From assembly GCF_000695095.2 (NCBI RefSeq), contig NZ_CP011454.1, forward strand, positions 62,001 through 126,000: a DNA stretch of 64,000 nt. Direction: 5' to 3'. Shown one piece after another: positions 9,588 through 54,781 of this stretch. Both the position numbers and the translations under genes were made by a program. Each line of letters starts with the position of its first letter. Within the stretch, counting starts at the first letter, position 1. Origin of the DNA: Gemmatimonas phototrophica. Its GTDB lineage: Bacteria; Gemmatimonadota; Gemmatimonadetes; Gemmatimonadales; Gemmatimonadaceae. The notes beneath the pieces were generated by a model, which saw nothing but the letters and a program-made list of their open reading frames with translations, searched no databases and had not been told where the DNA came from.

Positions 9588-9672
9588 GTGCCTGAACGAC
9601 GGAGGTGAAGAGCTGAGGAGGTGAGGAGCGTCTCTTCACCTCATCACCTCCTCAGCTCCATCGTTCAGGCAC
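9588..9672. repeat. palindromic repeat, family B-like
   Basis: Left arm GTGCCTGAACGACGGAGGTG, right arm ending CTCCATCGTTCAGGCAC. The outer 12 bases pair perfectly, and the inner parts are the GAGGTG/CACCTC blocks typical of family B. It runs into a 22-base tandem repeat. Confidence 0.8.
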
Positions 9673-9711
9673 GTGAGCTCCATCGTTCAGGCACGTGAGC
9701 TCCATCGTTCG
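9654..9711 (+). repeat. 22-base tandem repeat, about 2.6 copies
   Basis: The unit starting AGCTCCATCGTTCAGG and ending CACGTG occurs at 9654-9675 and 9676-9697, with a partial third copy at 9698-9711. The units extend the right arm of the preceding palindrome, so this looks like local slippage duplication of a repeat end. Confidence 0.85.
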
Positions 9712-19674: not shown

Positions 19675-19722
19675 GTCGGCAACGTCAGTCGCACTGAGCA
19701 CTGACAGCTCGAACTGAACACT

Positions 19723-19754
19723 GACAACTCCCCGCCGCCAGCGGGGAGTTTGTC
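19723..19754. terminator. stem-loop terminator downstream of the propeller gene
   Basis: GACAACTCCCCGC, a five-base loop, then GCGGGGAGTTTGTC: a stem of 13 pairs with a single bulge, GC-rich at the tip, about 50 bases after the stop codon. No long T run follows, so intrinsic termination strength is uncertain. Confidence 0.6.
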
Positions 19755-36146: not shown

Positions 36147-36440
36147 GTGATACGCTCCTTCGCTGACCTGGCCACCGAGGACCTGTTCAATGGGGTCGAT
36201 AGCCGCCGCGCCCGGCACGCGTGCCCCGTCACGCTCTGGTCCGTGGTGGCACGCAAGCTGACTCAGCTCAATCGGGTGCGCGACCAACGGGAACTGGCGG
36301 TGCCGCCTGCCAATCGTTTGGAAGCGCTGAAGGGCAGTCGACGCGGGCAGCACAGCATCCGCATAAACGATCAGTACCGGATCTGCTTCCGGTGGGAGGA
36401 GGGCTATGCCGACGATGTCGAAGTCACGGACTACCACTAA
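36147..36440 (+). CDS. higB: HigB toxin (RelE/ParE-fold mRNA interferase)
   Basis: 97 residues from GTG at 36147. The frame is open to 36000, but homologous sequence begins here (VIRSFADLATEDLFNG), and there is no in-frame ATG after the upstream gene's start region. Family pattern: ARKLTQLNRVRDQRELAVPPANRLEALKG followed by RRGQHSIRINDQYRICFRWEEGYADDVEVTDYH, with the basic and aromatic residues that contact mRNA on the ribosome. HigB toxins cut mRNA during translation. HigA overlaps it by 35 bases in the higB-higA order typical of the family. Confidence 0.93.
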   Translation: MIRSFADLATEDLFNGVDSRRARHACPVTLWSVVARKLTQLNRVRDQRELAVPPANRLEALKGSRRGQHSIRINDQYRICFRWEEGYADDVEVTDYH

Positions 36441-36777
36441 GCCCGCGAAGGGCTCCCCGCTGGTGCAGCGCCGCCTGCCCACCCATCGGCCACCGACGCA
36501 TCCGGGTGAGATGCTGCTGGAGGAGTTCCTCAAGCCGCTGGGCATCTCGCAGTCCGCGTTCGCGATCCAGCTGGGGGTTTCTTTTCCGCGGCTGAACGAG
36601 GTGATCAACGCCAAGCGGAGCGTCACGCCGGATACCGCGCTGCGCCTCGCCCAGGTGACGGGCATGAGTGCCGACTTCTGGCTCGGCCTGCAACAGGATT
36701 GGGATCTGTGGCACGCGCTCCGATCGAAGGAGGCCGCTGCGATCGCGCGCCTGAAGCCGTTGCCCCGCGCCGGATGA
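36406..36777 (+). CDS. higA: HigA antitoxin (HTH, addiction module)
   Basis: 123 residues. The HTH block HPGEMLLEEFLKPLGISQSAFAIQLGVSFPRLNEVINAKRSVTPDTALRLAQV is the HigA hallmark; the rest is a short helical tail. It should bind and neutralise HigB and repress the operon by binding the palindromic promoter region. The start is 36406 or 36415 (both ATG); the first gives a 35-base overlap with higB. The N-terminal 25 residues are basic and longer than usual for HigA. Confidence 0.93.
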   Translation: MPTMSKSRTTTKPAKGSPLVQRRLPTHRPPTHPGEMLLEEFLKPLGISQSAFAIQLGVSFPRLNEVINAKRSVTPDTALRLAQVTGMSADFWLGLQQDWDLWHALRSKEAAAIARLKPLPRAG

Positions 36778-43593: not shown

Positions 43594-44158
43594 GGGAGTT
43601 TGGTGAGCGGTGAGCGGTGCCTCGGCGTACGGCCAGGCCGGACGTGCACAGGGGGCTGGTCGAGTATACGGTGCAAACGCGGCTCGCGTGGCCGCCGACT
43701 CCCTTCCGCAGCGCCGGAGCCTTGGCACAGGACGTGAACAGGACCACGGATAGGAACAGATGGGTCGCGGACGGAACGCGGATCCAGCCAAGTCCTTCCT
43801 GTCGCTGGACTTCAGTCAATCAGTGGTAAGAAACGGCTGTATCCGCGTGGAATCTGTGGCTTATCTGTGCCAGGTATTGCCGCACCGGGTCGTTCGTCAC
43901 CGAATCATATGCGGATTGTGATGCTAACGCACTATACCACAACAGGTTAAGCGATAATCAAGACCCCTCAGCACCGCCGTTGCTACAGCCGCTTCTCTTC
44001 GTTCAGTTACAGCTTGAGCGAACCGATGGTGGTTATTGGCCAAAGACCGGATGATCACATCGTGGGAGCCGCAGATGCCAGGCGGGCGCCTGAGTTCGCG
44101 TCGATGTTGAGGAGTGGCGTGAGCTGCCCGTCTGCCAGTGAGACGGTAGATTGCAGGC
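43594..44158. other. long intergenic region with a family C repeat
   Basis: 565 bases between the divergent esterase and mntA genes. A family C repeat occupies 43743-43871. The part from 43890 to 44158 is AT-richer around 43910-43965 and should contain the promoter of the toxin-antitoxin pair, but no clear -35/-10 pair was found. Reading frames here overlap nothing convincing. Confidence 0.55.
43743..43871. repeat. ACGGAT-type repeat, family C copy
   Basis: The left unit, ACCACGGATAGGAACAGATG through GGAACGCGGATCC, is nearly identical to the unit at 12035-12076. The right part, GCTGTATCCGCGTGGAATC to CTTATCTGTGCC, is a diverged inverted counterpart. The 50 bases between contain TGTCGCTGG. 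Confidence 0.65.
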
Positions 44159-44476
44159 ATGACGGCCCAACCCCTCACCCGATGCGATGTGCAGACACGC
44201 CTCGCCGAGGCCCAAGCGGAGATCTTCCGATTGGGTGTGCAGCGCTTGGCGCTGTTCGGGTCAGTCCAACGCAACGAAGCGCGCAGCGACAGCGACGTCG
44301 ATGTGCTGGTCGAGTTCCTGCCTGGACAGAAAACATTCGATCACTTGCTGGCGCTCGGGGAGCTGCTCGAGCAGACTCTTGGTCAAACGGTCGAGCTCGT
44401 CACAGTCGAGTCGCTCTCGCCGTATCTGCGCCCCTATATCCTCGCCGAAGCCCAGGATGTCCTTCGCGCCGCGTGA
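44159..44476 (+). CDS. mntA: MntA-type nucleotidyltransferase antitoxin
   Basis: 105 residues. Minimal nucleotidyltransferase domain with [20 protein letters not shown] at 34-53: the GS motif and the DxD pair (Asp46, Asp48) that binds Mg-ATP, plus a later helical part. In characterised MntA/HepT pairs this protein adds AMP units to a HepT tyrosine and blocks its RNase activity. It overlaps hepT by 20 bases, as usual for the module. Confidence 0.93.
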
Positions 44477-44795
44477 GTACCTACGTCACATTGCAGACGA
44501 AGCGGCCTACCTGGAACTCGCTACCGCTGGGGTGAGTCGCGAGGCATTCCTGGAAGATCCGACCCTTCAGCGAGCCTGCGTGCGGAGCTTCGAGATTATC
44601 GGTGAAGCCACAAAGAAGGTGCCGGCCGAATTGCGCCAAGCGCATCCCGAGGTCGCATGGCGCGCGATGGCCGGCATGCGTGATCGACTGATTCATGACT
44701 ACTTCGGCGTAGACCTCGATCTCGTGTGGGATGTAATCCAGGAGAAGATTCCCACGCTCCGTAGACAGATCGCACAGATCCTCGCCGCGGACTAG
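44457..44795 (+). CDS. hepT: HepT toxin (HEPN RNase)
   Basis: 112 residues from ATG at 44457. All-helical HEPN protein with the Rx4-6H active motif in [13 protein letters not shown]: Arg75, His80, and Tyr82, the residue AMPylated by the partner. The helix [14 protein letters not shown] is a family mark. It should cleave RNA (reported targets include tRNA) unless modified by MntA. The frame is open further upstream but that part is the mntA gene in another frame. Confidence 0.93.
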
Positions 44796-44907
44796 CCGTG
44801 GGTCACTTCTGGCATGGCGATTGGAGCTGCATCCATTCTTCGTCATGTCCCATAGGCTCCATGTGGCCAACCGGCCTGTGGAATTTCATTGACGCTCAGG
44901 CATTTAG

Positions 44908-44971
44908 TGACAGGTAGAAGTCATCGCGACATAAATGCCGCTTTCGCGACAAAAAAATCTAATTCGCGACA
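44908..44971 (-). repeat. four TGTCR repeats at 20/20/19-base spacing, possible solitary transposon end
   Basis: On the minus strand TGTCGCGAA starts at 44971 and 44951, TGTCGCGAT at 44931 and TGTCACTAA at 44912. The first three are exact for the eight bases TGTCGCGA and sit two helical turns apart. Multiple spaced TGTCG/TGTCA sites are typical of the ends of Tn7-, Mu- and Tn552-like elements, where the transposase binds. No transposase gene and no matching opposite end were seen in the window. An operator for the gene starting at 44988 is the alternative. Confidence 0.6.
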
Positions 44972-44987
44972 ATAATTACCCGCCGAT

Positions 44988-45494
44988 ATGAGCAGTCTTA
45001 CGCGCTTAGCCCTCGCCCTCGCCGCTCTGCTCGCCTGGGCCTGCACCAAGCCAGCGCCCGGCGCTGACGCAGAGACGGCACTCATTGCCGGTGAGGACTC
45101 GTTGCGCGCGCGCTATGTGCGGCAGTTTACTTGCCCTGCCAGTGTGCCACGTGAATGGCGGCGGCGTGACGGGGTGCCGCTCGCTGATTGGGAGTGCAGC
45201 GCCCTGGTGGCTACGGCGGCCGCGCTCAAACGCGCTGAAGCACAACCCGGGTATGTGAGAGACTGGGCGCGCTTGCCGCTCCGGTGCGCTCACGTGATTG
45301 CTTTTCGATACCCGGAGCTGCGCCCCGATGGTACCTTCTCGCCGCTGCAAGGCTATTGGTCTGTTGAATTCCTGAACAGTCGAGCGCAAGGGGCGCGGGG
45401 TATTGTGTACGTGCCGAGTGGTACACTTGAGGTGCAGCCACTCAACAACGAATTCGTTGCGCCACTCGAGGAATTATGCCGCGCAGGGCTCTGA
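44988..45494 (+). CDS. putative lipoprotein, 168 residues
   Basis: Lipobox LAWAC near residues 15-19 after a hydrophobic stretch (LALALAALLAWAC) predicts lipid attachment and outer- or inner-membrane localisation. The mature part has four cysteines (FTCPAS, DWECSALV, PLRCAHV, LEELCRAGL), perhaps two disulfides, and the segment AHVIAFRYPELRPDGTF. No domain recognised. It starts 16 bases after the repeat array at 44908-44971, without a visible ribosome binding site. Confidence 0.65.
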   Translation: MSSLTRLALALAALLAWACTKPAPGADAETALIAGEDSLRARYVRQFTCPASVPREWRRRDGVPLADWECSALVATAAALKRAEAQPGYVRDWARLPLRCAHVIAFRYPELRPDGTFSPLQGYWSVEFLNSRAQGARGIVYVPSGTLEVQPLNNEFVAPLEELCRAGL

Positions 45495-45894: not shown

Positions 45895-48201
45895 ATGCAT
45901 CGTCTCGCGCTCCCGGCCCTCTCCCTGTTCACCCTGCTCACCCTGGCGCCCACCGCCAAGGCGCAGGGCCAGGTCGCAGCGCCGGCGCAAAACACCGTCT
46001 CCATCCGCGGCACCGTCCGCGACGACTCCACCAGCGCGCCGCTGCCACGGGTGACCGTCTCGGTGGAGGGCATTCCGCAGGTGGTGCTCACCGACAGCAC
46101 CGGGCGCTTTGCTTTTAGCCGAGTGCCGCGCGGTACCGTGGTGGTGCGGGCCAGGCGGGTGGGATACGCCGCGGTGGAACGGCCGGTGCGCGTACGCGAC
46201 AACGCCACCGCCGACGTGGAGCTGCGGCTACGGGTCACCGCCGCCACGCTGGTACCGGTACGCACGCAGGCGCAGCTCACCGAGCGCGAACGGTTTGAAG
46301 GCGCCCCGGCCACCTCCACCATTTCCCTCAACGCCGCGACACTCTCGGCGCTCCCGGCCATTGGCGAGGCCGACGCCATGCGCGTGGTGCAGCTGCTCCC
46401 CGGGGTGGTGGCGCGCAACGACTTTACCGCGGGGCTCAATGTGCGCGGCGGCGAGCAGGATCAGAACCTCGTGCTGCTCAATGGCATTCCGCTGTACCAG
46501 CCGTTTCACCTGGGCGGGGTGTTCAGCACGTTCATGGACGCCACCGTGGGGAGCATTCGCCTGCACGCGGGCGCCCCGCCGGTGGAGTATGGCGGCCGTC
46601 TGTCGAGTGTGCTCGAGGTGACCAGCGCCGAAGAAGCGCGGCGCGGCGTGCACGGTGAAGTGCAACTGTCGCTGCTGGCCGCCTCGCTGAGTGTGGGGGG
46701 CGCGAGTGCCAACGGACGCACGAGTTGGCAGGTGGCCGGGCGACGCACCTACGCCGACCAGATCGCGCAACGGGTGGCCCAACGCGACTTTCCGTACGCC
46801 TTTTATGACGGGCAGCTGCACGTAAATCGGCAGCTGCCGCGCGGTGGCACGCTGTCGCTCACGGCATACCACGGCCGCGACGCGCTGCGCGAAGACTTTA
46901 CGCAGCGCGAAGACACGCTGGGGCTGGACGGCGCCTACGCACTGGATTGGGGGAACGACGCCGTGGGGCTCACCTGGTCGCAGCCGCTGGGCGCCCGCAG
47001 TGCGTGGGTGCAACGGGCCAGCGTGTCGCGCTTTAGCAGTACGCAAGACGAAGGGGCCGGCGCCCTGCGTGCCTCCAACGATGTGCGCGAATGGCGCGCC
47101 AGTGGCCTGCTGCGCACGGAGCGCGGGGCGCACGTGGTGGGTGTGGGGTACGAGGCATCGCAGCACGATGTGTTGTTCAAGGAAACCTCCCCGCAGCTGG
47201 CGGCGGAGCTGCAGCGGCTTACGCAGCGTCCGGTGTCGGGGGCGCTGTTCCTCGACGACACGTGGCGCGTAGGGCGCCGGCTTACGGTAAGGCCCGGGGT
47301 GCGCGCCGAGTATGTGAGGAGTGCCCAGTGGGTGGGGGTGTCGCCGCGGGTGGCGGTGCGGTGGGCGCAGGGGGAGGATATGGCCTTTACCGCGACGGTG
47401 GGGAACACGGCGCAGTGGGTGCACGCACTGCGCGAAGAAGATGACGCGCTGCGCTTCTTTGACCGCTGGGTGCTCTCCGACTCCAACATTCCCGTGGCGC
47501 GCGCCACGCAGGCGAGTGTGGGGGTGGAGCGATGGCTGTCCAGGAGCCGGTTTGTGCGCATTGAGCCGTTTGCCAAGCGCTACGGCACGCTGGTGGAGCG
47601 CAACGGGCTGGACGATCGCGGCATGGTGGGCGACGAGTTTCGCCCCATCACCGGCACGTCTACCGGTGTGGACCTGTTTCTGCGGCAGGTGGAAACGGGG
47701 CCGCTGAGCGGGTGGATATCGTACACCTACACCAACAACTCACGCACGGATGGCGTGGACAGCTGGCGACCGGCGCAGGATAGGCGACATACGCTGAATG
47801 CGGTGGGCACGTGGCGCGTGGCCAATGGTACCGTGCTCTCCGGCCGGCTGGGCGTTGGCTCCGGCGTGCCGTATACCGGGGTGGAGGCGCAGCTGGTGCG
47901 CCGGCTGGCCGACCCGCGCAACAGCCAATGGGACCGCGGCGTGGTGGAGGGGGACGTGCAGAGCATTGCGGGGGCGCGCAACGCACAGCAGCTGCCCCCC
48001 TTCGTGCGCCTCGACTTCTCGGCGCAGCGCAGCTTTGTGCGCGGGCGCACGACGCTCACCCCGGTGCTGGGGGTGATCAACGCGACCAACCGCCGCAATG
48101 TGTTTGCCTATCGGTTTGACTATACCGCGGTGCCGGCGACGCGTGAGAGCCTGTCGCAGTTGCCCATTGTGCCCACCATTGGACTCACGGTGGCCTGGTG
48201 A
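45895..48201 (+). CDS. TonB-dependent outer-membrane receptor with N-terminal carboxypeptidase-like domain
   Basis: 768 residues. Signal peptide PALSLFTLLTLAPTAKAQG; CarboxypepD_reg-like domain about 37-115 (SIRGTVRDDSTSAPLPRVTVSV, GRFAFSRVPRGTVVVRARRVGY); plug domain with LPAIGEADAMRVVQLLPGVVARNDFTAGLNVRGGEQDQNLVLLNGIPLY; then a 22-strand-type barrel of about 540 residues ending PTIGLTVAW with terminal aromatic. It should import a large or chelated ligand using TonB energy. It is the first gene of a coupled three-gene unit with two lipoproteins. The ligand cannot be read from sequence. Confidence 0.93.
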   Translation: MHRLALPALSLFTLLTLAPTAKAQGQVAAPAQNTVSIRGTVRDDSTSAPLPRVTVSVEGIPQVVLTDSTGRFAFSRVPRGTVVVRARRVGYAAVERPVRVRDNATADVELRLRVTAATLVPVRTQAQLTERERFEGAPATSTISLNAATLSALPAIGEADAMRVVQLLPGVVARNDFTAGLNVRGGEQDQNLVLLNGIPLYQPFHLGGVFSTFMDATVGSIRLHAGAPPVEYGGRLSSVLEVTSAEEARRGVHGEVQLSLLAASLSVGGASANGRTSWQVAGRRTYADQIAQRVAQRDFPYAFYDGQLHVNRQLPRGGTLSLTAYHGRDALREDFTQREDTLGLDGAYALDWGNDAVGLTWSQPLGARSAWVQRASVSRFSSTQDEGAGALRASNDVREWRASGLLRTERGAHVVGVGYEASQHDVLFKETSPQLAAELQRLTQRPVSGALFLDDTWRVGRRLTVRPGVRAEYVRSAQWVGVSPRVAVRWAQGEDMAFTATVGNTAQWVHALREEDDALRFFDRWVLSDSNIPVARATQASVGVERWLSRSRFVRIEPFAKRYGTLVERNGLDDRGMVGDEFRPITGTSTGVDLFLRQVETGPLSGWISYTYTNNSRTDGVDSWRPAQDRRHTLNAVGTWRVANGTVLSGRLGVGSGVPYTGVEAQLVRRLADPRNSQWDRGVVEGDVQSIAGARNAQQLPPFVRLDFSAQRSFVRGRTTLTPVLGVINATNRRNVFAYRFDYTAVPATRESLSQLPIVPTIGLTVAW

Positions 48202-50353: not shown

Positions 50354-51625
50354 TTATCCCGACAGTCTTACCGTTTTTTCAACAATCTGTGCGATGAGAT
50401 AGGGGGGGACACTCTCACCGATTGCATGCGCGATTAAGGTACGAGACGCGTCCTTCCCACGAATTATCCAACGATACTCGTATCTACTGACAGTCTGAAT
50501 CACCAACGCTTCATAAGTTGAAAGTACTCGATTCTGCGACGGGTGAATCTTATTGTCTGACGCCTCAAATGGGAAATTGCTTGTTAGGGCACGCGCCGGC
50601 TTGTCCCACTCCATGCGCCGATATGCGGAGTGGAATCCACGAATCAAACGACGAGAGAGTCCGTCCGCTTCGGCAAGGCTCGGCCTAGGGAGAAGTTCTC
50701 CGCAGCGCTCACAGTAGATCGGAGTACTCTTGCTTGATTGCCATCGACCATCTTCGATAAGATCCGAATGCCGACGGTTACCCTGATATCCACAGAATGG
50801 ACTTACGCACTGGTTATTAAATGCGGTCTCCCCCTCTGGAGTGTGACTTACCCACCAGTACTTCTCGGGCTTCATTACGCCGACACGGTGGAGTGGATGA
50901 AACCACGGAGCAGCATTCTTTCCAACACTGGCGTCAATTTCCGGAAAATTACTAATCGCATGTCGGAGCGTTACTGGCATCCGGCGCTCACTGCTGGGGA
51001 AAAATGACATACCGTTCGATCGGTAGAACTCTGCGCCTTTTGGCTCTCTGGTAAAAATGGTAATGAGGCGTTTCCTCAGCTGTGGGATACCGAAATCAGA
51101 GCATGAGATGACTTCGCCACCGCCGACATACTCTTGTCCCAGGCGTTCCCGTATGTAGTCAAGGATAAGACGCGGTCCGTACTCAGTGCGAATCTCGGTG
51201 TAACGCATTCCTGGTACGTTCTCAAGCACTAACCACTTCGGCCGAAGCTCACAGATAACGTCCATAGCCGGAATGATAAGACGATTTCGAGCGTCTTCCT
51301 CTTCGCGAACGCCGGATGCAACTAAGGATTTCAACTTACCCGCACCGTTAGTTGACATTCCCTGGCATGGGGGTGTCCCATATACCATGAACAGTTCTTC
51401 GCCAGCAAGTATTTGCTTGGTTGTTTCGATGATTGTGCTTCGACGATCCCAAATGTCCCCCCGAAACATTTTCGTAGAGGGAAAATTCTCTTCGTAAAGG
51501 TCGCAACGATCTGAAAGTAGTTCGTTCGCAACGAGCACCTCTACACCGGCGGCGACCATTCCCAATTCCCCTAAGCCGGCGGAGGAAAAGAGGCTGATTC
51601 CGAGCTTTCGGGAAGCAGTGTTCAT
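50354..51625 (-). CDS. C5-cytosine DNA methyltransferase with zinc-ribbon-like insert (island methylase 1)
   Basis: 423 residues. Motif I SLFSSAGLGELGM, motif IV GTPPCQG with catalytic Cys87, motif VI LENV, motif VIII GIPQLRKRLITI and the late motif IX-X region with ALTSNFPF and IAHAIGESVPPYL. The target recognition part (about 240-330) contains CVSPFC and CERC (Cys273, Cys278, Cys305, Cys308), spaced like a zinc ribbon, unusual for this family. It should methylate cytosine C5 within a specific site. It is the downstream partner of a second C5 methylase (79-base gap). AT-rich codon use differs from neighbours outside the island. Confidence 0.9.
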   Translation of the reverse strand: MNTASRKLGISLFSSAGLGELGMVAAGVEVLVANELLSDRCDLYEENFPSTKMFRGDIWDRRSTIIETTKQILAGEELFMVYGTPPCQGMSTNGAGKLKSLVASGVREEEDARNRLIIPAMDVICELRPKWLVLENVPGMRYTEIRTEYGPRLILDYIRERLGQEYVGGGEVISCSDFGIPQLRKRLITIFTREPKGAEFYRSNGMSFFPSSERRMPVTLRHAISNFPEIDASVGKNAAPWFHPLHRVGVMKPEKYWWVSHTPEGETAFNNQCVSPFCGYQGNRRHSDLIEDGRWQSSKSTPIYCERCGELLPRPSLAEADGLSRRLIRGFHSAYRRMEWDKPARALTSNFPFEASDNKIHPSQNRVLSTYEALVIQTVSRYEYRWIIRGKDASRTLIAHAIGESVPPYLIAQIVEKTVRLSG

Positions 51626-51704
51626 CGTAGGCTGATCGTATGGGATAGCGGGCGAACCATATTACCAAGAAAAGAGCCATCCAATTGTTTGAACGGCAAA
51701 TGGC

Positions 51705-52838
51705 TCAGTTGAGCATGGAAAGCACGGTCGCTGCGATAGCGCTACCCAGAAGAGGAGGAACTGCATTTCCTATCTGCGAAGCGATTTCAGTGTAAGGTCC
51801 GACAAACAGATAGTCATCATCAAAGGACTGAAGCCTAGCCGCTTCCCTGGGAGTGATCGTTCGATGCTGGGTCGGATGAATGCATTTGTTCGAAGCCGGG
51901 CTTTGGAACTTTACGGTAATAGTTGTTGAGGGCTCGCTTGCTGAAAGACGCGAGTAACATGAACTGAACCCACTACTGATCAGATGCTTTGGAATACTCG
52001 AAATGTTTGGCCCCGCATGCTTTATAACTTCGAGCATTCGATCTGAATGATTTGCGGCGCGATGGAGAGTCAGAGATTTTGCACGCGCTCTTCGAGCCCG
52101 CTGATAGTCATTCTTCGGATCTTGATCGTAGCAGACCAATTCCTGTCCGCGCTCAAGTTGTGGCAACTCCCCGATCGCATCCTCAACCGAAACGGCTCTA
52201 AGAAGACCTGATCCACCAAGCAAGTATCGAGAGCGATCCTTGAATCCGATCACCTTTCCGTCAAAAAAATGCGTAGGCGAAGGAAAGTGAACAGCGCGAT
52301 TATCCCGAGCTGCGATCATAATGAAACGTTCACGCTTCTGCGGAACGCCATAGCTCGCCGCGTTGAGGATTCGCCAGTCCACCGAATAGCCAAGCTTGGT
52401 GAAAGACTCAAGTAGTTGATCGAGAGTTCTTCCCCCCTGGTGAGTGAGCAAGCCGACTACGTTCTCGAGAACGACTACCTTTGGTCGAAATGCCTCGACG
52501 AACTGCGCAAACCTAAGATACAGATTGTTGCGATCGTCCTCTCGCTTGTTCGATCTATTCGGCCTTAGCGATGAGAATCCTTGACAGGGCGGCCCCCCAA
52601 TAACGACATCAACTCTTTTCCGTCGGATCGCCGACTGAACACTTTGCGGTGATACCGAACGTATGTCATTCGTCTCTACTAGTATACCGGGATGATTTCG
52701 ACGGGCTGTTTCGCTCGCTGAGGCATCTAGGTCTATAGCGTACTTGAGTGCGAATCGCGTGGAGAAGTTAAGGAACCCCTGCGAAAAGCCGCCCGTGCCA
52801 CAGAAGAGATCGATAATTGAGAGGTTGTTGGCTCCCAT
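51705..52838 (-). CDS. C5-cytosine DNA methyltransferase (island methylase 2)
   Basis: 377 residues with the full motif set: I IIDLFCGTGGFSQGF, IV IGGPPCQGFSS with catalytic Cys85, VI VVLENVVGLL, VIII AASYGVPQKRERFIMI, IX-X RTITPREAARLQSF and IGNAVPPLLG. This is the common Dcm/HhaI-type domain order. The target recognition region lies about 190-300. With methylase 1 it could protect the two strands of an asymmetric site, as in type IIS-like systems with two methylases. First gene on the minus strand, divergent from the regulator gene at 53030. Confidence 0.93.
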   Translation of the reverse strand: MGANNLSIIDLFCGTGGFSQGFLNFSTRFALKYAIDLDASASETARRNHPGILVETNDIRSVSPQSVQSAIRRKRVDVVIGGPPCQGFSSLRPNRSNKREDDRNNLYLRFAQFVEAFRPKVVVLENVVGLLTHQGGRTLDQLLESFTKLGYSVDWRILNAASYGVPQKRERFIMIAARDNRAVHFPSPTHFFDGKVIGFKDRSRYLLGGSGLLRAVSVEDAIGELPQLERGQELVCYDQDPKNDYQRARRARAKSLTLHRAANHSDRMLEVIKHAGPNISSIPKHLISSGFSSCYSRLSASEPSTTITVKFQSPASNKCIHPTQHRTITPREAARLQSFDDDYLFVGPYTEIASQIGNAVPPLLGSAIAATVLSMLN

Positions 52839-52873
52839 GCTTGATTGACTCCCTAACAGAACGGTTACCTGAC

Positions 52874-52892
52874 GAAAGTAGATGTCACTTTC
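52874..52892. promoter_or_regulatory. possible operator between methylase and regulator genes
   Basis: Inverted repeat GAAAGT-AGATGTC-ACTTTC lies 36 bases before the methylase 2 start on one side and 138 before the regulator on the other. It has the size expected for a dimeric Cro/CI-type repressor site. It does not match the classical C-box of restriction controllers. Suggested by position only. Confidence 0.35.
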
Positions 52893-53029
52893 ATCGCGTG
52901 CACATCGATATTGTAGTCGGGCAGGACGAAATCGAAGTGCGAATCAACTTCTCAACCTCAAACTAACTGAATGGCACCCAACACGCCATGCTAGGGCGTG
53001 GTAGGGATGGCGGAGGGTGCATTAGCCTG

Positions 53030-53284
53030 ATGACTATGGGCAACAGCAAGCGACTCATTAGTGCCGAATCTATCCAGCGAAGCCTAGGCAGAGCGGTTCG
53101 AGTAACACGTAACGCCAAGGGGTTAACTCAAGAGGAAGTTGCGCGTCGCTCTGGATTTGGGTGGAGGCACATTCAAAAGATTGAGGCGGGAGAGGTGAAT
53201 GCCACTCTTCGAACTATTTGTCGCGTTGCGCATGCATTAGATGTTGACCCCGGGGATTTGCTCAAGGAAATCAGGGTGGATTGA
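53030..53284 (+). CDS. Cro/CI-type HTH regulator (controller-like)
   Basis: 84 residues from ATG at 53030 (or 82 from ATG at 53036; the frame is open to 52988). One helix-turn-helix domain: LGRAVRVTRNAKGLTQEEVARRSGFGWRHIQKIEAGEVNATLRTICRVAHALDVDPGDLL, the size and form of restriction-modification controller (C) proteins. It is divergent from the methylases and upstream of the nuclease, so a role in timing their expression is plausible. No strong ribosome binding site was seen. Confidence 0.85.
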   Translation: MTMGNSKRLISAESIQRSLGRAVRVTRNAKGLTQEEVARRSGFGWRHIQKIEAGEVNATLRTICRVAHALDVDPGDLLKEIRVD

Positions 53285-53474
53285 AGTGCCCACCCAGGGG
53301 CAGTCATCTTCGGGAAGTCAAAAGTGGCGGATGGTTCAAAAATACCGCGAACAACGCCACACTTACCCGCTCTTCATCGCTTCGCATTGTCGCACCTGCT
53401 ACTCTCGTTGGCAGGGATAATCGACAGCCAACAAACAGGCGCGCTTTCGGATCACTCCCACAGAAGACACGCAG

Positions 53475-54014
53475 ATGTTAGCAAATACAGAACTGATAAT
53501 TCTTCCCTACTCAAGTAAAGAAGGTCGAAGCATTCTTCAGATACTTGTGTGGGAGCTTGAGAATGGTGGCTGGACATCTTTCCGCGGCGCCGTTGCTTTT
53601 GCTAGGCATTCAGGCAACGATGTTCGACTTCTCAGTGCCCTTTCGTCGTTTGTTGAAAGGGGTGCTTCAATCGCTCTGACCTTAGGAGCTGATACTTTCG
53701 GTACGACTGGTCGTGGGACCGAGTATCACGCCGTAGAAACTCTTCTTCGACTGTTTGCTCCGTATCCGAACGCTGAACTCTTTCTATATCATGAGCCCCG
53801 AAGAACATTTCACCCTAAAATCTATCTCTTCGCGAATGAGCAAGAGGGGCGAGCGTTGTCAATTATTGGATCCTCAAATTGGACAGAAGGGGGGCTTGCC
53901 GAGAATGTAGAAGCAAACGTCTTGATAACGTTTGATTTGACCATTGCAGACCACCTATCCAATTACCAAAGTCTCAAGGGCCACTTTGAACGCTATTGGA
54001 GCGAGATGCAATGA
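53475..54014 (+). CDS. phospholipase D-fold nuclease, probable restriction endonuclease subunit
   Basis: 179 residues with one PLD half-site: RTFHPKIYLFA (His113, Lys115) followed by IIGSSNWTEGGLAENVEANV with Ser133/Ser134 and Asn135. The single HxK motif means two subunits must pair to form one active site, as in the BfiI and NgoFVII restriction enzymes and Nuc. The rest (SFRGAVAFARHSGNDVRLLSAL) fits the same fold. The absence of a DNA-recognition domain in this chain suggests that the coupled next protein supplies it. Low-GC codon use matches the methylases. Confidence 0.82.
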   Translation: MLANTELIILPYSSKEGRSILQILVWELENGGWTSFRGAVAFARHSGNDVRLLSALSSFVERGASIALTLGADTFGTTGRGTEYHAVETLLRLFAPYPNAELFLYHEPRRTFHPKIYLFANEQEGRALSIIGSSNWTEGGLAENVEANVLITFDLTIADHLSNYQSLKGHFERYWSEMQ

Positions 54015-54781
54015 GCGAGGGAGAAGGATTCGCGCGACGCGTAACACTTGAGACTCTTGAGCAATACGCACCGCTTCTTGGAAGGAAATCTGGCGAGATA
54101 AGTGCCCGTCTCGGCAGTGGTTCGACAGACGGAAGCACTGTATTAGAGCCGAATGGACAACCCTCTCCGCCAGATGCTGCCCTTATAGCTGCAGAGGCCC
54201 TGTTCGTGGGAGAGTCGGTAAGGACGGGAATGACCTATCGTCGGCCTACGGTTAAACCCCCAGCTATCGTTTGCGGCGGCCAGCCTCAGACACCGTATGT
54301 CCCAACGGTATCCATCGAGGGTGATGGAGCTTTCCTGCTAATGAGAGTCCGACCACGTCGTACCGGTACTCAAGTACAAGTTTCGCTAATCATTCATCAG
54401 TCACCATTCATGAATCATGCAACCGAGGTTGTCTCGGGTGAGGACCATTCGGTACGTCCTATTGGCTACGACTTTGTCAAACGGGGGAATAACAGAGTGC
54501 CCAATCTCGCAAGGTTCGAGGCCCCAGAAATGAGAGGAATGACCAACCCCGTCGCGATCTTTGAGTGGGTAAGTACCGGTACACTAACAACTGACAGAAT
54601 ACTTAGGTATAAGCTCTTGGACGCAGATACAAGCATCCTTGGCTCGAGGGTTTTCGAGAAGCTCAAGCTTGGAATTAGTACTAGCCCGTTGACGGACTTG
54701 AGCCAATTGAGCGATAGTCATACAGTTGTTTCCAAGTCCGATATCGAGAGTGCACAGTGGTACAGACTAGATCGTAAGTAG
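54011..54781 (+). CDS. unknown protein coupled to the PLD nuclease
   Basis: 256 residues from ATG at 54011, overlapping the nuclease stop as ATGA; a second ATG at 53996 is also in frame. No domain recognised. It begins with a short acidic helix and LETLEQYAPLLGRKSGEISARLG, then mainly strands: VPTVSIEGDGAFLLMRVRPRRTGTQVQVSLIIH, GYDFVKRGNNRVPNLARF, VAIFEWVSTGTLTTDRILRYKLLD. I infer that it is the specificity or accessory subunit of the nuclease, from coupling alone. A restriction effector of a new type or a sensor are alternatives. Confidence 0.6.
   Translation: MSEGEGFARRVTLETLEQYAPLLGRKSGEISARLGSGSTDGSTVLEPNGQPSPPDAALIAAEALFVGESVRTGMTYRRPTVKPPAIVCGGQPQTPYVPTVSIEGDGAFLLMRVRPRRTGTQVQVSLIIHQSPFMNHATEVVSGEDHSVRPIGYDFVKRGNNRVPNLARFEAPEMRGMTNPVAIFEWVSTGTLTTDRILRYKLLDADTSILGSRVFEKLKLGISTSPLTDLSQLSDSHTVVSKSDIESAQWYRLDRK

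Follow-up and report, generated by a model that had tools for sequence, protein, structure and literature searches.

What is the short array of direct TGTC repeats that lies between the MntA/HepT pair and a lipoprotein gene in Gemmatimonas phototrophica? The site is a relatively AT-rich gap, bounded by the end of HepT at 44795 and by a lipoprotein-like gene that starts at 44988, in the window analysed here, a continuous stretch of 64,000 nucleotides. The original prediction took the repeats for a relic transposon end and offered an operator as the alternative. The minus strand has copies of TGTCGCGA beginning at 44971, 44951 and 44931, and TGTCACTA follows at 44912, giving steps of 20, 20 and 19 bases; the prediction of three exact repeats at 20-base steps with a related fourth at 19 is thus confirmed on this strand. 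Read on the plus strand, the units extend from 44905 to 44971 as TCGCGACA. The stated distance of 16 bases between the array and the lipoprotein start also proved correct, the start being the ATG of the gene at 44988. The four units and the presumed target are listed below, with ranks from the operator matrix described later.

44964–44971, minus strand: unit 1, TGTCGCGA, then AATTAGA; matrix rank 7 of 127,974 positions
44944–44951, minus strand: unit 2, TGTCGCGA, then AAGCGG; matrix rank 1 of 127,974 positions
44924–44931, minus strand: unit 3, TGTCGCGA, then TGACTT; matrix rank 264
44905–44912, minus strand: unit 4, TGTCACTA, 19 bases from unit 3; matrix rank 171
44988–45494, plus strand: lipoprotein-like gene of 168 residues, with signal LLAWAC and no Pfam family; presumed target of the array

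The octamer by itself is not unusual, as the window has nine occurrences of TGTCGCGA where 5.34 are expected; its regular spacing is unusual. Identical 8-mer triples with an equal spacing of 12–60 bases are found at two places in the window, one being the array and the other a tandem repeat of 22 bp at 9654; an equally spaced 8-mer triple appeared in one of 100 windows simulated with an order-3 Markov model. For runs of three TGTC(A/G) units at a spacing of 17–24 bases, the array is the sole example in the window. Across the whole genome, searched as one contig of 4,716,552 bases, three-unit TGTC runs at 20 bp occur, apart from the array, at three places that belong to a different tandem repeat, TGTCAGTT; the array is the only one of its kind in these 4.72 Mb.

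The window holds several further repeats and gene groups. A perfect 22-bp tandem repeat of 2.6 copies, AGCTCCATCGTTCAGGCACGTG, occupies 9654–9710, and a 20-bp tandem repeat at 19689–19730, TCGAACTGAACACTGACAAC, resembles TGTCAGTTTGAGTTTTCAGT repeats at three other places in the genome (L002–L006). The short repeat at 43733–43789 is dispersed, being 78–89% identical at eight other genome places, and part of it pairs with 43835–43871 as an imperfect inverted repeat. At 36147–36777, the gene for a HigB-like toxin precedes one for an HTH_3 protein, and the two are a probable higBA toxin-antitoxin pair. The region 50354–54781, whose codon use is unlike that of its surroundings, is likely to be a restriction-modification island; it encodes two C-5 cytosine methylases, together with a protein that has a PLD domain and matches the NgoFVII type weakly.

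Related motifs occur elsewhere in the phylum. The sequence TGTCGCRA is present twice at 20 bp in four of 395 genomes, that of G. phototrophica included, against three for the reversed control. Pairs of TGTCGCGA separated by spacers of 8–18 bases are found in 32 of the 395 genomes, at 34 places; because the control gives about 15 matches, many of these pairs are due to chance. At one locus (L334, genome G234), TGTCGCGAATT occurs twice at 22 bp and carries the same octamer as the array. The repeats there sit between the minus-strand gene for a 269-residue HTH_18 protein (E 2.5e-14) and a gene for a 50-residue lipoprotein-like product.

Used as a query, the L334 regulator has matches in 284 of 366 genomes, and 50 AraC-type loci were examined, 30 returned by the search and 20 chosen from the list. 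Direct pairs of GCG(A/G)CA, 18–24 bp apart and nearly all at exactly 21 bp, were found in 30 of the 50 within a stretch of up to 220 bases upstream of the regulator; the controls gave none of 50 on the antisense strand, none of 50 inside the gene and a rate of 0.0009 in shuffled sequence. The looser form G(C/G)G(A/G)CA brings the number of loci to 35, which include many close relatives and so do not represent 35 independent events. Even this looser pair is missing from the remaining 15, which include the closest relative in the G. phototrophica genome itself (L368), and some of the 15 show other repeats by eye, for example TTTTAGGACA in L383. The operators of these AraC-type loci lie 0–33 bases before the start of the regulator. 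A divergent lipoprotein-like peptide of 39–53 residues, typically MSRRIR...ACADATGP, is encoded at 32 of the 35 loci; L340 and L360 have none, and the one at L351 looks spurious.

The loci L334 and L338–L379, mostly from one other family of the same order, share a conserved cassette composed of a gene for a 39–53-residue lipoprotein-like product, a 21-bp tandem operator of TGTCGCAAAA type and a divergent HTH_18 regulator. We know of no published name for these tandem-repeat loci. The parts of the literature consulted on AraC operators of Gemmatimonas or Gemmatimonadota gave nothing relevant, and for papers that contain TGTCGCGA, the titles and beginnings of abstracts inspected describe no relevant operator.

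The fit of the array to this class was assessed with a 14-base operator matrix, built from 34 of 49 loci with the seed locus left out. In the window it places units 2 and 1 first and seventh of 127,974 positions, and units 3 and 4 264th and 171st. Scored as a tandem pair, the array reaches 26.1, and the next pair in the window outside the array 11.4. Among 1,727,558 control positions in other loci of the phylum, a set that includes overlapping copies of some loci and many loci fetched for containing TGTCGC, no pair reaches 26.1 and five reach 15. When the matrix is rebuilt from random thirds of the loci, the array scores 18.1–28.5. Two further loci flagged by the matrix, L329 and L337, were rejected, as the sites lie within a coding gene or overlap the end of a gene.

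Part of this match is circular, since it was the octamer that pointed to the AraC-type class, and for this reason the bases after TGTCGC were scored separately. On these bases only, units 1 and 2 rank first and second of the 59 TGTCGC sites in the window, and unit 3 ranks 16th. With the octamers fixed and the rest of the array shuffled, 60 of 20,000 sequences reach the array score; with genome-like spacers the number is 76 of 20,000. On these scores the resemblance to AraC-type operators goes beyond the octamer alone, yet it is moderate.

Structural comparison reveals both likenesses and differences. As in AraC-type operators, the direct repeats are about two helical turns apart, at 20/20/19 bases against 21–22 in the class, and in sequence two of the four units fit the class. 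The HTH_18 tandem repeats of the phylum (L334, L339, L347 and others) are likewise TGTC-based and end a few bases upstream of a start codon. They consist, however, of two units at 21–22 bp, placed between the regulator gene and a divergent gene for a lipoprotein of ∼42 residues, whereas the array has more units, a shorter spacing and a 168-residue lipoprotein gene where the class has its regulator. The half-sites I1 and I2 of AraC are spaced about 21 bp apart. In the araBAD promoter of E. coli these adjacent half-sites are described as bound by AraC monomers (PMC4486848, PMC10547716). The array shares with them the tandem arrangement, and differs in having three to four units at 20/20/19, another sequence and no adjoining regulator gene.

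The neighbours of the array are HepT and the 168-residue lipoprotein gene, and no HTH_18 gene adjoins it. Nor is there a divergent gene for a ∼42-residue lipoprotein among the listed open reading frames, all of at least 60 residues; the sole minus-strand frame listed near the array, 44481–44870, is antisense to HepT. A search of 31 window proteins, a part of the predicted genes, with the HTH_18 profile gave no match, and tblastn of six AraC-type regulators against the window gave no convincing one. An RNA family search returned one match, far below the gathering score. Because it has neither a regulator gene beside it nor a divergent gene for a small lipoprotein, we do not class the array as a member of the cassette.

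Among 201 genomes of the order, 7 have a homologue of the gene at 44988, that of G. phototrophica included, and the homologues are weak in all except G073, another genome of the genus, in which the identity is 51–53%. The array is absent upstream of the G073 homologue, where a single TCGCGAC stands 26 bases before the ATG; none of 46 predicted genes in the window has this heptamer within 100 bases upstream. The isolated TCGCGAC is a hint and no proof. The predicted structure of the lipoprotein, with a mean pLDDT of 46, is unusable. Orthologues of the TonB receptor encoded at 45895, 65–80% identical in four genomes, are preceded by neither a lipoprotein gene nor HepT nor an esterase gene, in stretches of unequal length (about 1 to 13 kb), and a conserved neighbourhood around this receptor was rejected.

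Our preferred reading, to which we would give about even weight, is that the array is a putative cis-regulatory tandem operator for the gene at 44988, functioning in the manner of the phylum's AraC-type operators. The operator alternative in the original prediction is strengthened in one respect, the likeness to promoters of AraC-type regulators, and weakened in another, in that the array does not precede the one good homologue found, that of G073, which has a single TCGCGAC instead. We infer that a protein binds the array and that it is most likely a regulator of AraC/XylS type (HTH_18), recognising the direct TGTC repeats; with the repeats about two turns apart, it would be bound on one face of the helix. 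The control, whose sign we likewise infer, would probably consist in occluding or shaping transcription of the 44988 gene, because 16 bases separate the last site from the start codon.

A more specific proposal can be put forward only tentatively. The array may be a stand-alone, expanded operator of three to four sites, belonging to a phylum-specific AraC-type system whose usual form is the compact cassette of ∼42-residue lipoprotein gene, 21-bp tandem TGTCGCAAAA operator and divergent HTH_18 regulator; here it would have been recruited to a larger lipoprotein gene and would be served in trans.

The location of the array before the 44988 gene would also suit an operator of some unrelated regulator, such as a response regulator or a repressor of phage type, which uses direct TGTC repeats to control this gene and has no link to AraC. 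That no AraC-type gene was found nearby is consistent with such an origin, as are the TGTCGC arrays of viral contigs (L196 and L197, for example), which lie in gaps before phage genes. We nevertheless judge this unlikely, as the bases outside the octamer match AraC-type operators better than chance. In one of these viral contigs, four TGTCGC units ∼20 bp apart (L197:8674–8743) occupy the gap before a small gene and are a possible phage operator array.

A functionless origin, in which slippage produced a small number of 20-bp copies and these later drifted apart, would find parallels in the other 20–22 bp tandem repeats of the genome and the window, and would account for the lack of conservation before the one good homologue of the 44988 gene. 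We regard such a decayed or short tandem repeat as rather improbable, however, since units 1–3 have kept identity at 8 of 8 bases while their 12-base spacers have diverged, and since such a triple arose in only one of the 100 simulated windows. The position before a start codon and the match to operators would, moreover, both have to be coincidence.

The reading that survives least well is that of a solitary end of a Mu/Tn7/Tn552-like transposon, its transposase-binding array remaining once the other parts had been lost, which is very doubtful because the genome contains no second copy or partner of the array and no PF09299 domain. The attraction of this idea is that several TGTC sites in one orientation and ∼20 bp apart do resemble transposase-binding arrays. 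Mu/Tn7/Tn552-like elements are described as carrying arrays at both ends (PMC8649781, PMC9527255), and in type V-K Tn7-like elements one transposase monomer is reported per short site (PMC9527255). The array is like those of Tn7-like elements in having several short sites in the same orientation, and unlike them in having no partner end, transposase, copies or known target duplication.

The genome search for the same array or an inverted copy, as proposed with the original prediction, yielded no second copy or partner. Allowing up to two mismatches, TGTCGCGA-N12-TGTCGCGA occurs at nine genome places besides the array, all with two mismatches, against ten for the reversed control; the window contains no inverted partner on either strand and no occurrence of ATAATTGTC. 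The Mu/TnsB-type domain PF09299, unmatched in the G. phototrophica genome, is found in 13 of the 395 genomes of the phylum, at 14 places, and the stretches around all 14 lack a comparable array; one of them (L248) has a single TGTC triple, dissimilar to it. PF00665 has four matches in the G. phototrophica genome, one of them within a gene pair that we take to be IS21-like, and this element is flanked by AAGTGTGCAATTCT repeats, so that its ends are unlike the array. By eye, no transposase was recognised in the open reading frame lists of L042, L121 and L195–L197, inspected as transposon candidates, and BLAST against plasmids and phages gave matches at chance level only.

The array had also been proposed as the trace of the arrival of the MntA/HepT pair, which the boundaries of that module do not bear out. 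In the family, 29 of 179 genomes have a HepT homologue. In all seven of the other loci aligned, similarity to the MntA/HepT module is confined to 44142–44806, the shared segment ending ∼100 bases short of the array; in G351, identity is 90% over 44147–44806, with unrelated flanks on both sides and nothing beyond. The array is absent from all 29 other HepT loci, so that the G. phototrophica locus is the only one of 30 scanned to carry it, and it was rejected as a part of the module; a TGTCG triple at one of them (L273) is dissimilar to it. Because the shared segment stops before the array, and the other HepT loci lack it, the MntA/HepT pair appears, on the evidence of these loci, to move by itself, bounded separately from the array, and the array would not be its scar. 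The MntA/HepT segment of G351 has the same gene fragment on both sides.

With the array read as a putative operator, the guess of a transposon end is replaced by a regulatory site that can be tested. The array also points to a conserved cassette of regulator and tiny lipoprotein in a poorly studied phylum, and the sequence rule that emerges, of direct TGTC repeats at about 21 bp, could be used to map regulons across the phylum.
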